Of a DNA stretch of 32,070 nucleotides, positions 26,296-31,856 are shown in pieces. Position numbers and translations under genes: made by a program. Position 1 is the stretch's first letter; every line of letters starts with the position of its first letter. The DNA comes from Nitrospinota bacterium (lineage in GTDB: Bacteria; Nitrospinota_A; UBA7883; JACRGQ01): assembly GCA_016217735.1 (NCBI GenBank), contig JACRGQ010000068.1:1-32070 (forward strand), written 5' to 3'. Below the pieces are notes generated by a model. The model did not search any database and was not told where the DNA came from. It saw nothing but the letters and a program-made list of their open reading frames with translations.

Positions 26296-27147
26296 ATGCC
26301 GATGCCGATTAACAGCGCCAGCAACAAAAATATCCTTAACCAGATAGGGAAAACTTCGAACGCCCTCGCCGGAAACCTCGCCAAACTGGCGAGCGGCAAA
26401 CGGATCAACAGCGCCGCCGACGACGCGGCGGGAATGGCCATTTCGGCACAGTTGCAATCAAAGATCGCCTCCACCGATCAGGCAAGCTCCAACATCAGCC
26501 AAGGGGGCGCGATGCTCCGGACCGCCGAAGGGGGTCTGGGACAGATCGGCGACATGCTTTCGCGCGGGCGCGAGCTGGCGGTGCAGGCCGCCAACGGTAC
26601 GCTGAACGACCAGCAACGGCAGGCGATCAACAGCGAGTTCACCAACATCAAGCAGGAGATCGACCGGGTCACGCAGACCACCGAATACAACGGCCAGCAG
26701 CTGCTTACGGGCCAACTGGGGCCGAACGCCCAGAATCCCCCCGTGATTCAGGCGGGAACCAACGCCACTCCCAACGACCGCATCGCCCTGAACCAGATCA
26801 ACGCCTCCGACACCGCGTCGCTCGGCGTAAACAACCTTTCGCTCGATACCGCCGCGAACGCCCAAAACGCGCTGCAGGGAATCGATAACGCCATTTCGTC
26901 CGTGGCGCAAAACCGGGCGGGCATTGGGGCCATGGAAAACCGGCTGCAGGCCGGGGCATCCAACCTGGCGGTATCGAAGGAAAATCTCACCGCCGCCGAT
27001 ACGCAGATCAGCGGCCTCGACTACGCGGCGGAGATATCCTCGATGAAGCAGAATCAGGTGGCGATGCAGGCGGGCCTCAGCGCGCTGAAAAGCGGCCTGA
27101 AAACGCAGGAAAAAATGATCGGCAGCCTGCTGAACACAAAAGGCTGA
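26296..27147 (+). CDS. Flagellin, short form lacking most of the variable domain
   Basis: The 283-residue protein has the flagellin N-terminal D0/D1 helices (NALAGNLAKLASGKRINSAADDAAGMAIS through REIDRV-type coiled coil to about 140) and C-terminal D1/D0 (about 195-283, NRAGIGAMENRLQAGASNL...). Only about 55 residues (145-195, PNAQNPPVIQAGTNATPND...) stand in place of the surface-exposed D2/D3 domains. Flagellin polymerises as the filament after export by the flagellar secretion system. No chaperone or other flagellar gene is nearby. A GAGG precedes the ATG by 9 bp; a second ATG (26302) is possible. I see no convincing sigma-28 or sigma-54 promoter. Confidence 0.93.
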   Translation: MPMPINSASNKNILNQIGKTSNALAGNLAKLASGKRINSAADDAAGMAISAQLQSKIASTDQASSNISQGGAMLRTAEGGLGQIGDMLSRGRELAVQAANGTLNDQQRQAINSEFTNIKQEIDRVTQTTEYNGQQLLTGQLGPNAQNPPVIQAGTNATPNDRIALNQINASDTASLGVNNLSLDTAANAQNALQGIDNAISSVAQNRAGIGAMENRLQAGASNLAVSKENLTAADTQISGLDYAAEISSMKQNQVAMQAGLSALKSGLKTQEKMIGSLLNTKG

Positions 27148-27233: not shown

Positions 27234-28091
27234 TCAACGCTCCGGAGCCGCTTCTTTCATCTTTTCATCAATCCGGGCCACCGCCGCCTGATCCTCCGCG
27301 GCCCTGCGTTCAAGGCTGCCGGCGCTGTTCACGGCATAAGCGCGGACATAGAAGTACCGGGCGGCGGGGTAATCCTTCTTCGCCTCATATGCCATGCCGA
27401 TGAGATGCAGCGTTTCGCCGATGGCGGTCACGGCTTCATCCGCCTTATCGAGCGCCAGCGCGCGGTTGAGGTGCGTGAGCGCCGCGTCCGGCGCGCCCGT
27501 TTTTATGAATAGCAGGCCCAAGTTGCCCAGACAGGCCGATTCGGCGGAATTGTCCTTGGCGGAATGCGCCGCGTCCAACGCGGCCATGAAATGTTTTTTA
27601 GCCCCATCCGTATCGCCCTTCGCCATCGCCAGCCTGCCATGGGCGTTCTCCCGTTTCCAGCCGCCGATGCCGGCCGAAACGGCGGCGGCAACCGCCGCTT
27701 CGGCGCGCGGGATGTCTCCCCGCGCCAGCTCGGCCATCGCGCCAGCCAGCGCCGCCTCCGCCGCGAGAGCCTTCAGGTTCTCACGTTCGGCGATCCGCAG
27801 CGCCTGTTCAAAATAATCGGCCGCCAGCGGATAATTCCCCTCCAGCATGCCCGCTTTCCCCATCTTTATGAAGACGGCGGAAACCCCCGGCAGGTTGTCG
27901 GCGCGGCGGTACTCGCGCAGCGCCGCCTCGTACCGCCGCTTCGCGCCGGCCACATTCCCCCGCCGCAAACTTTCATCCCCTTGCCCTTCCTGGCCTTCGG
28001 CGCGGGTGGGGAGCGGCTTGACCGCTTCGGACGAGGCGCAGGCCGCCGCGAAAACCGCCAGCGCCGCGCATGCGATAAACAGCCGTTTCAT
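27234..28091 (-). CDS. TPR-repeat lipoprotein, last gene of the mla operon
   Basis: The 285-residue protein starts MKRLFIACAALAVFAAACASSEA: a short signal with lipobox AAAC and Cys18, so an anchored lipoprotein; with Ala-Ser after the Cys it is probably sent to the outer membrane. The rest is helical TPR-like repeats (AKRRYEAALREYRRADN, NYPLAADYFEQALRIAE, AALTHLNRALALDK, KDYPAARYFYVRAYAVN). GGAGG precedes the ATG at 28091, which overlaps mlaD by 4 bp. Coupling to mlaD suggests a role with lipid transport, but there is no known homologue function I can name. The open frame continuing to 28400 is a shadow. Confidence 0.85.
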   Translation of the reverse strand: MKRLFIACAALAVFAAACASSEAVKPLPTRAEGQEGQGDESLRRGNVAGAKRRYEAALREYRRADNLPGVSAVFIKMGKAGMLEGNYPLAADYFEQALRIAERENLKALAAEAALAGAMAELARGDIPRAEAAVAAAVSAGIGGWKRENAHGRLAMAKGDTDGAKKHFMAALDAAHSAKDNSAESACLGNLGLLFIKTGAPDAALTHLNRALALDKADEAVTAIGETLHLIGMAYEAKKDYPAARYFYVRAYAVNSAGSLERRAAEDQAAVARIDEKMKEAAPER

Positions 28092-29158
28092 TTCCCGCCT
28101 CCGTACACCGCGTCCCGCGCCGCCGGTTCCATCTGGATTTTTTCCTTGTCGGGGGACACCATGTTCTTCACCGGCCAGGAACGCTTGATTCCTTTCACTA
28201 TCGCCAGGGTTTCGTTCAATGTCGTCTCCATGTCGTCCAACAGCGGCGGCACCTTGGCGGAGGTGTGCGACATGTCTTCGGCCATCGAGCCGATGTTCGC
28301 CACGGTCTTTTTCACGGTGGGGGTCATCTCGCGCATATCCAGCAGAAGGTGATCCATGTTTTTCAGCACCTGATTCATGTTTTTTTGCAGATCCGGCCAA
28401 TCGCCGCTGGCGGTCTTCACGTTGCCGCTGATGTCGGCCACGTTATTCATCGTTTCGGGCAGGCGTTTGGCGGCTTCGGCCATCCGTTCGGAAAGCGTGG
28501 TTAACCGGTCGGCCAAACGGTCGAGGCGGTTGTAGAATTCCCCGTTGTCGGTGCTCAGGAATTTGCCCGCGGTCGATTTGCCGTTGCGTATGTTGCTGAT
28601 CACCGCGCCCACATCCCCGATGGCGGCGTTGATGCGCTCATCCGGAAAGCCGGCAAGCACCTTCTCCACGCGGAAGACTATCTTTTCCGCGGCGGCAAGC
28701 ATTGGACTCACGCGATCCATCAGGTTGTCCATGTCAAACAGCCCCTGCGCCGCTATGGTGCCGCCGTCTTTTGCCGGCGGCGCGGACTCGCTGCCGCCGC
28801 GGATGCGTATCTCCTTGATCCCGATCATGCTGGCCGAAGCGATAATGGCCACGGCATCGGCGTGTATTCTGTCCATGTACTGCCGTTCAATCATAAGCGA
28901 AAGTTCCACTTCATCCCGCGCTCCCAGCCTGACGCCGCCCACGCGGCCGATGGCCATGCCGGCGAACACAACCGGCGTACCGGTGTCGATCCCCTGCGCC
29001 GAAGCCACGATGGTCCTCAGCGTGGCCGTCTTCTTGAACAAACCGCGGTTATATCCCCACATCACGAACAAAAACAGCATGACCGCCGCCGGAATGCCGA
29101 TGAACACCGCGATTGCGGCGTTTTTCTGCGCGGGGGTGAGCCGGTGTATGTAATGCAT
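28088..29158 (-). CDS. mlaD: MlaD-type MCE-domain substrate-binding protein
   Basis: The 356-residue protein has an N-terminal membrane anchor (about 14-36, AAIAVFIGIPAAVMLFLFVMW), then an MCE domain (about 45-118, VASAQGIDTGTPVVFAGMAIGRVGGVRLG and EIRIRGG). After it comes a long helical tail (about 140-330) with repeated coiled-coil segments (RLDRLADRLTTLSERMAEAAKRLPETMNNVADISGNVK). MCE proteins form hexameric rings that carry lipids across the periplasm. The tail is longer than in E. coli MlaD and more like the extended MCE proteins that could span the periplasm. It starts immediately after mlaF and overlaps the TPR gene by 4 bp. Confidence 0.9.
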   Translation of the reverse strand: MHYIHRLTPAQKNAAIAVFIGIPAAVMLFLFVMWGYNRGLFKKTATLRTIVASAQGIDTGTPVVFAGMAIGRVGGVRLGARDEVELSLMIERQYMDRIHADAVAIIASASMIGIKEIRIRGGSESAPPAKDGGTIAAQGLFDMDNLMDRVSPMLAAAEKIVFRVEKVLAGFPDERINAAIGDVGAVISNIRNGKSTAGKFLSTDNGEFYNRLDRLADRLTTLSERMAEAAKRLPETMNNVADISGNVKTASGDWPDLQKNMNQVLKNMDHLLLDMREMTPTVKKTVANIGSMAEDMSHTSAKVPPLLDDMETTLNETLAIVKGIKRSWPVKNMVSPDKEKIQMEPAARDAVYGGGK

Positions 29159-29947
29159 CTATTCTTTCTCCGTTTGATCGTCTTTAAAAAGAACTTTGAA
29201 AAATCCGCTGATTTCCCTTTTCTGCCGCTCGGTGTAATTCCGTATCTCCCTGAAAAATTCCCGCGCCGCGCGGTCGGTTGTTTCCAGCCGGCCGGAATGG
29301 GGGATAAGGCGGCGATCCACCAGATAGTAGAAGCTCGCTCCCTCAATAGCCGCCAGAGACGGCGAACAGGTGGTAATCAGCAAAGTCACTCCTTGATCGC
29401 GGAACCGCTTGATCGTCGCCATGACCTGCATGAAACCGGCCGGGTCGATATCCCCCCCGGTCGGCTCGTCCATGACGAGCAGGCGGGGATTTTGGATCGT
29501 GGCGCGGGCCAGCATTGCCAGCTTGGCGTCGTTGGTATTAATCTCGTGCGGGAATCGGTCGGCGATCCCGCCGATGCCGAGCAGTTCCAGCAGGGGGAGC
29601 ACCCGGGCGCGCATCTCGCGCTCCCTCAATCCTTGATGATACGAGAGGGGAAGCCCCACATTGGCCGCGATGTTGAGGTTATCCAGCAGCGTCACATGTT
29701 GCGTCACCATGCCGATGTGCCGGAAATCCCCCTCCTCCGGGCCGTCACCGGCAAACATCCGCCGGCCCATCAAATATACGGCGCCGGCGGTCACGGGAGT
29801 TTTCCCCAGGCAAACATTGATGAAATCGGTCTTCCCCACCATGCGGGAACCGAGTATGACCGCCACACCCCCTTCCGGCAGGTGGAAATTGGCGCCGTTG
29901 AAAGAACCGGCTTCCGAAGTAAAGCTGACGTTTTCAAGGCGTATCAT
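29159..29947 (-). CDS. mlaF: MlaF-type ABC ATPase with degenerate motifs
   Basis: The 262-residue protein shows Walker A GSRMVGKT (33-40), a Q-loop glutamine (Q83) and Walker B LLVMDEPTGGD (156-166). The ABC signature is missing: the place of LSGG reads INTND (136-140). The H-loop histidine is replaced by Cys194 (ITTCSPS). Such an ATPase may be inactive or hydrolyse poorly. The frame could start at TTG 29962, but ATG 29947 overlaps the mlaE stop as ATGA and matches the usual N-terminus (MIRLENVSF), so I chose it. It lies between the permease and MCE genes, so its role is energising or gating lipid transport by the Mla complex. Confidence 0.87.
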   Translation of the reverse strand: MIRLENVSFTSEAGSFNGANFHLPEGGVAVILGSRMVGKTDFINVCLGKTPVTAGAVYLMGRRMFAGDGPEEGDFRHIGMVTQHVTLLDNLNIAANVGLPLSYHQGLREREMRARVLPLLELLGIGGIADRFPHEINTNDAKLAMLARATIQNPRLLVMDEPTGGDIDPAGFMQVMATIKRFRDQGVTLLITTCSPSLAAIEGASFYYLVDRRLIPHSGRLETTDRAAREFFREIRNYTERQKREISGFFKVLFKDDQTEKE

Positions 29948-30936
29948 AACGTCATGTACCAAACGAAGGAGATGATCATATTGATTATGAAACTGGCGAT
30001 AAACGCGGTAACTATTGCTTTGCTGGCCCGTTGGGGTATCTCGGTGGCGGAGGATTTAACGTTGACCCCCTGATGGATGCAGACGAGGGCGACGGTAAAA
30101 CCAAGCACTCCTCCTTTGAGAAGACCGACCAGAAAATCGCCGGCGTGGAGGGAGCCGACGAAAAGGATTATCGTCTTGTTCAGGCTGGCCCCCCTTTGGA
30201 AAGATGAGATGACCAGCCACGAGAAAAACGTCATAACGACGAAATAGCCGTTGAGTATGATTCCCGCCGCGGTGAGACCAATTATGCGCGGGATATAAAA
30301 GTACTGGGCCAAGTCGATCCCCATCGCCGCCAGCGCCTCGTGATGGCGCTTCACCCGCATGTTGCCCAGTTCCACCGTGATGGCGCTGCCGGAGCGCCCC
30401 ACGAGGATGAGCGCCGTGAAAAGCGGGGCGATCTCTTTGACGATGAGGCTGGTGACAATCCCCATGAGAAAGGCGGAAGCCTCGAAACCGGGAGCGTAGG
30501 TCATCATCTGCACCAGCACCACGCCGCCGATAACCACCGCGACCACGCTCACCACCCCCACCGCATCGATACCGGAAAAAATGATCTGGTGGATGGTGAG
30601 GTTTTTTACATACCGGCGGTGATTCCCCTTAAGTGAGCGAAGCCCCAGCCAAAATTCCATGAACAGGTAGGCGAGTTGGCGCCAGAAGGCGAGGCTCGCC
30701 AGCCGTCCCTCCAAATAACGCTCGGTCCGGGTAAGCGCGCGCTCCCCCTCCGCCGGCGCCGCAAGCGGCGCCAACAGTTCCTCATTCACCTGATTCTCCC
30801 TCCGGTTATCCCAGCTATGATAAGTCAGATGAAACGCCAAAAACAGGAGGAAATTTTGGCTCCACTGAAAAATGCGGATAAAAACCCACGGCGGGAAAAA
30901 ACCGCGTGACGGATTATCCCGGTCCGCATCTGGCAA
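29944..30936 (-). CDS. mlaE: MlaE-type lipid transport permease
   Basis: The 330-residue protein has an unusually long N-terminal region (about 1-115, with HLTYHSWDNRRENQVNEELLAPLAAPAEGE) before the permease domain. That domain has about five membrane segments and the conserved motif GRSGSAITVELGNMRVKRHHEALAAMGID (about 205-233). MlaE dimers form the inner-membrane core for MCE-linked phospholipid movement between membranes. It is the first gene of mlaE-mlaF-mlaD-TPR. The shorter GTG and ATG starts inside the N-terminus cannot be excluded; the ATG at 30936 keeps all of the open frame. No MlaB or MlaC gene is present. Confidence 0.88.
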   Translation of the reverse strand: MPDADRDNPSRGFFPPWVFIRIFQWSQNFLLFLAFHLTYHSWDNRRENQVNEELLAPLAAPAEGERALTRTERYLEGRLASLAFWRQLAYLFMEFWLGLRSLKGNHRRYVKNLTIHQIIFSGIDAVGVVSVVAVVIGGVVLVQMMTYAPGFEASAFLMGIVTSLIVKEIAPLFTALILVGRSGSAITVELGNMRVKRHHEALAAMGIDLAQYFYIPRIIGLTAAGIILNGYFVVMTFFSWLVISSFQRGASLNKTIILFVGSLHAGDFLVGLLKGGVLGFTVALVCIHQGVNVKSSATEIPQRASKAIVTAFIASFIINMIISFVWYMTL

Positions 30937-31022: not shown

Positions 31023-31412
31023 TTACCGCTTGGAGAACTGGAACCGCTTGCGCGCGCCCTTCTGGCCGTACTTTTTGCGCTCCTTCATCCGGCTGTCGCG
31101 GGTGAGAAGGCCGGCCTTCTTCAGGGCGCGGCGGAATTCCGGATTCAGCTTGCACAACGCGCGGGATATGGCGTGGCGGACCGCGCCAGCCTGCGAATTG
31201 AGGCCGCTGCCGCGCACGGTGGCGCGCACATCCAGCTTCGCGTCGCTGGCGGCGATCACCAGCGGCTGCTTCACCAGCATTTCGCTGGAAGGGCGCTTGA
31301 AGTATTCATGCAGCCCCTTCTTGTTAACGGTGATCTTGCCGGTGCCGGCCGCCAGCCAGATGCGGGCGGCCGCGGTTTTGCGGCGGCCGGTGGCGTATTG
31401 AGCGTTAGCCAT
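31023..31412 (-). CDS. rpsI: 30S ribosomal protein S9
   Basis: The 129-residue protein begins MANAQYATGRRKTAAARIWLAAGTGKITVNKKGL and ends KKYGQKGARKRFQFSKR, the S9 signature; the basic C-terminal tail reaches the P-site tRNA. GVRHAISRALCKLNPEFRRALKKAGLLTRDSRMKERKK is the C-terminal core. It follows rplM by 3 bp, the usual rplM-rpsI pair, with the ribosome binding site within the rplM end. A strong terminator follows. Confidence 0.97.
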   Translation of the reverse strand: MANAQYATGRRKTAAARIWLAAGTGKITVNKKGLHEYFKRPSSEMLVKQPLVIAASDAKLDVRATVRGSGLNSQAGAVRHAISRALCKLNPEFRRALKKAGLLTRDSRMKERKKYGQKGARKRFQFSKR

Positions 31413-31415
31413 TCG

Positions 31416-31856
31416 TCATATCTCCATTTTTTCCGGTTGTTGCGCGGCGTGCGGATGCTCCGCGCCGGCGAAAATCTTGAGTTTCTTCATGAATTGCGCC
31501 CGCAGCTTGTTGCCCGGCAACATGCCGTGAACCGCTTCCTCGATCACGCGGTCGGGGTGCTTGGCCAGCATTTCCCCGGCGGTGGCGGAGCGGAGGTGTC
31601 CCACCCAGCCGGTGTGGTGGTAGTAAATCTTGTCGGTAAGTTTTTTGCCGGTCAGCTTCACCTTCGCCGCGTTGATGACGATCACATGATCGCCGGTGTC
31701 AACGTGGGAGGTGTAGGTCGGCTTGTCCTTGCCGCGCAGGGCGTTGGCGACCGCGGTGGCTATGCGGCCGAGGGATTTCCCTTCGGCGTCGACAATGCGC
31801 CACTTCTTGTCGCTGTCCTTAAAATCTTCTTTACGTGCAAAATAAGTCGTCTTCAT
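31416..31856 (-). CDS. rplM: 50S ribosomal protein L13
   Basis: The 146-residue protein begins MKTTYFARKEDFKDSDKKWRIVDAEGKSLGRIATAVANALRGKDKPTYTSHVDTGD, the L13 pattern, then the YYHHTGWVGHLRSATAGEMLAKHPDRVIEEAVHGMLPGNKLRAQFMKKLKIFAG block. L13 binds 23S rRNA early in 50S assembly. It is the first gene of the operon and has a near-consensus promoter 31-58 bp upstream. The ribosome binding site (GATGGG) is modest. Confidence 0.97.
   Translation of the reverse strand: MKTTYFARKEDFKDSDKKWRIVDAEGKSLGRIATAVANALRGKDKPTYTSHVDTGDHVIVINAAKVKLTGKKLTDKIYYHHTGWVGHLRSATAGEMLAKHPDRVIEEAVHGMLPGNKLRAQFMKKLKIFAGAEHPHAAQQPEKMEI

Follow-up and report, generated by a model that had tools for sequence, protein, structure and literature searches.

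A degenerate MlaF-like subunit kept beside an altered MlaE permease in a Nitrospinota bacterium and its relatives: a candidate scaffold for ATP-independent lipid transport

Known MlaE/MCE systems and the operon

MlaFEDB of E. coli contains the ATPase MlaF, the permease MlaE, and the MCE protein MlaD. Each of the 2 ATP sites of MlaF is reported to combine the Walker A and B motifs of one subunit with the LSGG signature of the other (PMC7784689), and the Walker A and B mutants K47A and E170Q are described as failing to complement (PMC7367683). The direction of Mla transport and the role of ATP in it are described as debated; in the same account, lipid passes spontaneously from MlaD to MlaC and hydrolysis blocks that flow (PMC10212509). 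A minimal MlaEFD system in Veillonella parvula is presented as a transenvelope bridge with no MlaA or MlaC, in which a long MlaD-type protein is thought to span the periplasm (PMC10665443). PqiABC of E. coli joins an inner-membrane protein, a spanning MCE protein, and an outer-membrane lipoprotein, and no ATPase is named among its 3 components (PMC10897342).

The window, which is the whole stretch of 32,070 nucleotides analyzed here, constitutes one entire contig of a 2.53 Mb assembly (76 contigs, 95.48% complete). It carries genes for a permease, an ATPase-like protein, an MCE protein, and a TPR lipoprotein in that order, close together or overlapping, downstream of rplM-rpsI (Table 1), and in one genus mate (G004) rpsI and rplM adjoin the operon as well. 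The presence of an MlaE permease and an MCE protein in one operon (PF02405 and PF02470) places the system in the MlaE/MCE superfamily. It is like E. coli MlaFEDB in its permease family, in the ABC fold of its ATPase, and in having an MCE protein, but it differs in lacking the ABC signature and the switch histidine, in a changed loop where the permease presumably faces the ATPase, and in the long MCE protein and TPR lipoprotein encoded in the operon. It differs further in that MlaA and MlaC have no match in the genome; among the 24 phylum genomes, 23 lack both and 1 has them. It shares with the Veillonella bridge the lack of MlaA and MlaC and a long MlaD-type protein, and it would work like PqiABC, through an inner-membrane protein, a spanning MCE protein, and an outer-membrane lipoprotein. 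Unlike PqiABC, the system has an MlaE permease, which matches only PF02405 in Pfam (no PqiA component), and a TPR lipoprotein, which matches only TPR families (no PqiC component), and it has kept an ATPase-derived subunit.

The TPR lipoprotein is the fourth gene of the operon, with its lipobox and start taken from the sequence. The MCE protein appears to consist of an N-terminal helix, a single MCE domain, and a long helical C-terminal part; its structure model is of too low confidence (mean pLDDT 48) to build on. For the permease, GGAGGGAG precedes the GTG start, which agrees with the frame starts in homologs and is preferred; an upstream TTG at 30936 is an artefact of the list of open frames. 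The original prediction had proposed that a long N-terminal extension of the permease might compensate for the lost motifs of the ATPase, and this idea disappears together with the TTG start. A short flagellin-like open frame of 283 aa (26296-27147), recognized by eye only, adjoins the 3' end of the operon.

Table 1. Genes of the operon and its upstream neighbors in the window
Feature	Position	Strand	Length	Remarks
rpsI + rplM	31023..31856	minus		upstream neighbors, outside the system; names by eye
MlaE-family permease	29944..30789	minus	281 aa	PF02405 3e-44; GTG start at 30789
MlaF-like ABC pseudo-ATPase	29159..29947	minus	262 aa	ATG at 29947
MCE-domain protein	28088..29158	minus	356 aa	PF02470 6.5e-10
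TPR protein with lipoprotein-type signal (MKRLFIACAALAVFAAAC)	27234..28091	minus	285 aa	PF13424 7e-18

Motif loss in the ATPase-like protein and its relatives

The ATPase-like protein matches the ABC nucleotide-binding fold (PF00005, 9.6e-16) and scores 66.6 bits against the NCBIfam MlaF equivalog PRK11831, below the curated cut-off of 441. Its structure model (9 sequences, pLDDT 82) resembles ABC ATPases, with a TM score of 0.79 and 24% identity to E. coli MlaF (6xbd), and ends in a C-terminal helix of 35 residues (226-260); in E. coli, a C-terminal extension of MlaF is reported to clamp the dimer (PMC7367683). Walker B (LLVMDEPT) is intact, the catalytic Glu161 is present, and the Q-loop reads VTQHV. 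Walker A had also been called intact, which is only partly so: GSRMVGKT fits GxxxxGK[ST], yet the middle glycine of GxxGxGK[ST] is missing. Alignment confirms the 2 losses originally read from the sequence, with INTND at residues 136-140 in the column of the LSGGM signature and Cys194 in that of the switch histidine (H-loop). It likewise supports the earlier view that in a homodimer both ATP sites would be crippled. The ABC exporters TM287/288 and TmrAB are also described as having non-canonical residues in an ATP site, but those are reported to be heterodimers with one working site, whereas the presumed homodimer of the window has none.

The suggested alignment with orthologs extends these losses to every family member read. 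The signature and the switch histidine are both missing from all 8 full-length orthologs, which come from 8 further genomes of that family; one (L048) additionally lacks Walker A, another (L049) lacks the Walker B aspartate, and 7 of the 9 family proteins retain Walker A together with Walker B. In 3 proteins of another family of the class, set in the same gene layout, every motif is gone (L051-L053). Sequencing or assembly error, including the misassembly that had been considered as a cause, is ruled out by the 8 orthologs, which share the motif loss.

A survey with a permease profile over 192 genomes (matches listed down to 1.8e-35) yielded 151 MlaE permease frames in 147 loci, with an adjoining ATPase found for 126, of which 2 were dropped as wrong or incomplete neighbors (L158 and L180). 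The loop before the last transmembrane helix splits the permeases into 121 that are mostly GVGxATT-like and 30 that bear a proline in a T[E/D/Q][I/V/L]P-like motif; 2 of the latter (L041 and L050) sit at the ends of contigs, where no complete ATPase could be read. The permease of the window belongs to the proline type, and within it to the TEIP type, T[E/D][I/V]P, reading SSATEIPQRAS where the canonical sequence is GGAEGVGKATT. Among 96 ATPases beside canonical permeases, xSGG is present in 93, the switch histidine in 96, and all 4 catalytic motifs in 92. Of the 28 beside proline-type permeases, none has xSGG or all 4 motifs, while 14 keep GxxxxGK[ST] and 11 the Walker B Asp-Glu pair; the switch region of 3 TEIP proteins (L079, L083, and L115) resisted alignment. 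Outside the TEIP type, altered signatures also occur at L111, L099, and L139 (VSLSV, VSIGM, and LSYGM), where Walker A, Walker B, and the histidine are kept.

A second permease profile was run over 385 genomes (matches listed down to about 1e-50), and 12 further high-scoring genomes were read, with ATPase motifs assigned by eye. Nine of the 12 are TEIP-type, and by eye all 9 of their ATPases lack xSGG, 8 lack the switch histidine, 3 keep Walker A, and 1 keeps the Walker B Asp-Glu pair. Two others have an RQVPK loop with an LSVGM ATPase, and the last (G196) is GVG-type with an intact ATPase, as are 3 more GVG controls (L249-L251). When the 27 survey and 9 fresh ATPases beside TEIP-type permeases are pooled, none of the 36 has xSGG and none has the full set of 4 motifs. 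At least 14 of the phylum's 24 genomes carry the TEIP type, as do at least 24 of 361 others, the latter spanning at least 18 family codes.

Most of the clade loci read consist of the permease-ATPase pair followed by an MCE gene, often followed in turn by a gene for a TPR or other lipoprotein; no MCE gene was recognized beside the TEIP permease in G163 or in 3 genomes of family f99. At 3 loci of family f99 (L236, L238, and L248), the ATPase frame is shortened to about 170-207 codons and has no P-loop, and it still stands beside a TEIP-type permease. L105 and L240 have a histidine at the switch position but lack the P-loop. A few members of the clade keep a partial signature (LSMGE, LSTGH, or ISLGE) plus Walker A, and these may retain activity.

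The permease clade, the docking segment, and the second Mla locus

With the loop columns removed, the permease tree still separates the 30 proline-type rows from the 121 others (SH-aLRT 100), and a careful tree of 71 rows, also without the loop columns, separates 41 proline-type from 30 canonical rows (100/100). On the proline-type side of the latter, Walker A has changed at least 6 times. The same side includes 3 RQVPK permeases of one genus (L204 in G111, L242 in G379, and L243 in G251), whose placement there is not settled by the tree. Their ATPases are near-intact (LSVGM, histidine kept) and no MCE gene was recognized beside them; these loci may show the state before motif loss. The 71-row tree does not fix the deeper branching order among the proline-type permeases, and it does not tell whether full degeneration arose once or several times.

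MlaE is reported to have 5 helices, with a cytoplasmic coupling helix between TM2 and TM3 and a periplasmic helix between TM3 and TM4 (PMC7790496), and from this topology we infer that the TM4-TM5 loop lies on the ATPase side. On the ATPase itself, few parts are as well conserved as the segment after the Q-loop, LxxN(90)xxxxxN(96)xxLPxxYH, while the catalytic columns have lost conservation in the clade. Asn90 is present in all 28 proline-type ATPases of the survey and in 11 fresh ones read by eye (39 of 39), where canonical MlaF has serine in 98% (weighted). Within the survey, Asn96 is found in all proline-type ATPases and Tyr103 in 87% (weighted). In ABC transporters, the region after the Q-loop lies by the coupling helix. 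Since this segment is conserved and the catalytic columns are not, the presumed docking face appears to have changed along with the permease loop and been kept, whereas the catalytic face was not.

Another MlaE permease is present in 35 of the 38 genomes with the TEIP type, a figure that counts permeases, the ATPase of the second permease having been left unread in G115 and some others. The exceptions are the genome of the window, G007 (82% complete), and G326 (one contig). In G326, the only MlaE is TEIP-type, and its ATPase keeps Walker A and B together with ISLGE and has asparagine at the switch position; a canonical partner system is thus not universal. Three genus mates of the window carry a canonical mlaEF locus, which in G006 stands beside a gene identified by eye as uvrC. 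The possibility of a second ATPase had been raised originally, and a search of the window's assembly found no second MlaF. This is a weak negative, since the uvrC-type protein and most of the surrounding DNA are missing from the assembly too, so that the canonical locus probably lies in an assembly gap and its true loss is unsupported. Near the canonical mlaE of G006, there is a repeat of about 95 bp (L191:5823-5922); matching sequences, 74-95% identical, lie at about 16 places spread over many contigs of the window's assembly.

Possible mechanisms and their meaning

The original prediction had allowed for passive lipid movement or a different mechanism, and this is the best reading of the data, backed by conservation over many genomes. 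We consider it likely that the pseudo-ATPase is kept as a docking scaffold in an ATP-independent lipid conduit. The MlaF-derived subunit would retain its fold and its permease-docking surface without carrying out normal ABC hydrolysis, and 2 such subunits would sit on the cytoplasmic face of an MlaE-type permease dimer in the inner membrane. From there, an MCE ring and its long helical stalk would reach through the periplasm toward the operon lipoprotein, which is probably in the outer membrane. With hydrolysis removed but the assembly intact, what is left would be a path for lipids to follow their gradient, and this favors a passive bridge along which lipids would pass without an ATP stroke, most likely from the inner to the outer membrane. 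The uphill work would fall, in most of these cells, to a canonical MlaEFD system that is separate and driven by ATP. The sequences themselves show the disarmed site and how widely it occurs, the selection on the gene, the changed loop and docking segment, and the order of the operon, and the structure model shows that the fold is retained; the absence of hydrolysis, the passive flow and its direction, the stoichiometry, and the scaffold role are what we infer here.

Within the window's own family, ATP may still bind, since Walker A and B survive in 7 of the 9 proteins, and it could serve as a switch or undergo slow hydrolysis. In some heterodimeric ABC exporters, degenerate sites still bind ATP. 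A reading built on this would let the mere binding of ATP gate the permease or stabilize the complex, with neither hydrolysis nor a signature sandwich, and the retention of Lys39 in 70% (weighted) of the clade is consistent with it. Across the clade, however, 20 of the 36 pooled members lack GxxxxGK[ST] and 25 lack the Walker B Asp-Glu pair, and with the repeated Walker A changes on the tree these losses mean that ATP binding cannot be a need of the whole clade. We regard such a switch as unlikely.

It is distinctly improbable that the permease is driven by a canonical MlaF encoded at a second locus, either paired with the degenerate subunit or in its place. The second MlaE permeases of most TEIP-type genomes would fit such sharing, and one ATPase serving several permeases is described elsewhere, as for mycobacterial MceG (PMC9947336). 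A mixed dimer would nonetheless have no complete site, because the Walker A, Walker B, and histidine of the canonical subunit would face a missing signature and the degenerate subunit has no histidine of its own. The joint change of permease loop and docking segment, with Asn90 throughout the proline-type neighbors, and the lack of a second MlaE in G326 also stand against it.

We give very little credence to a new catalytic site, in which an unconventional ATPase would be formed by a TTSSP switch and by acidic residues where the signature used to be (INTND, ITDSE, or ISDAE). The family does keep an acidic fifth residue in the replaced signature and an invariant S195-P196 (9 of 9), and that fifth position is Asp or Glu in 17 of the 27 TEIP proteins of the survey, but members that lack Walker A show the same pattern, and the canonical catalytic columns are no longer conserved. 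Finally, a decaying pseudogene or sequencing artefact, for which nothing speaks beyond the lost motifs, is practically dismissed by the open frames, the similar operon in distant genomes, and dN/dS values for the pseudo-ATPase among genus mates of 0.10, 0.14, and 0.16 (Nei-Gojobori).

By the same method, the permease ranges between genus mates over 0.08-0.20, the MCE protein over 0.10-0.22, and the TPR protein over 0.16-0.26, and a canonical MlaF gives 0.11; ratios from wider pairs are rough, with synonymous distances of 0.6-1.3. The pseudo-ATPase is under normal purifying selection.

A literature search, with most subscription papers outside its reach, returned no report of MlaF-like proteins without the signature or Walker motifs. 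One broad survey assigned MlaF by synteny and omitted it from its tree for uncertain annotation (PMC10665443). Across a wide span of bacteria, there is reason to doubt annotations that label TEIP-type subunits as functional ATPases, and the TEIP loop of the permease together with N90/N96/LPxxYH of the ATPase provides a two-part search signature for them.

The recurrence of the same loss in distantly related bacteria suggests that a whole branch of these transporters moves lipids without ATP. We regard it as a real possibility, though not as the probable outcome, that an ancient and widespread MCE branch gave up ABC pumping and became a lipid bridge that needs no ATP, with the dead ATPase kept as a structural clamp, and that many diderms run 2 parallel bridges, one driven and presumably inward, the other passive and presumably outward. 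A clade with a disarmed but retained ATPase reveals the part of the machine that runs in the absence of hydrolysis, and TEIP-type complexes would offer a passive flow that is measurable on its own.
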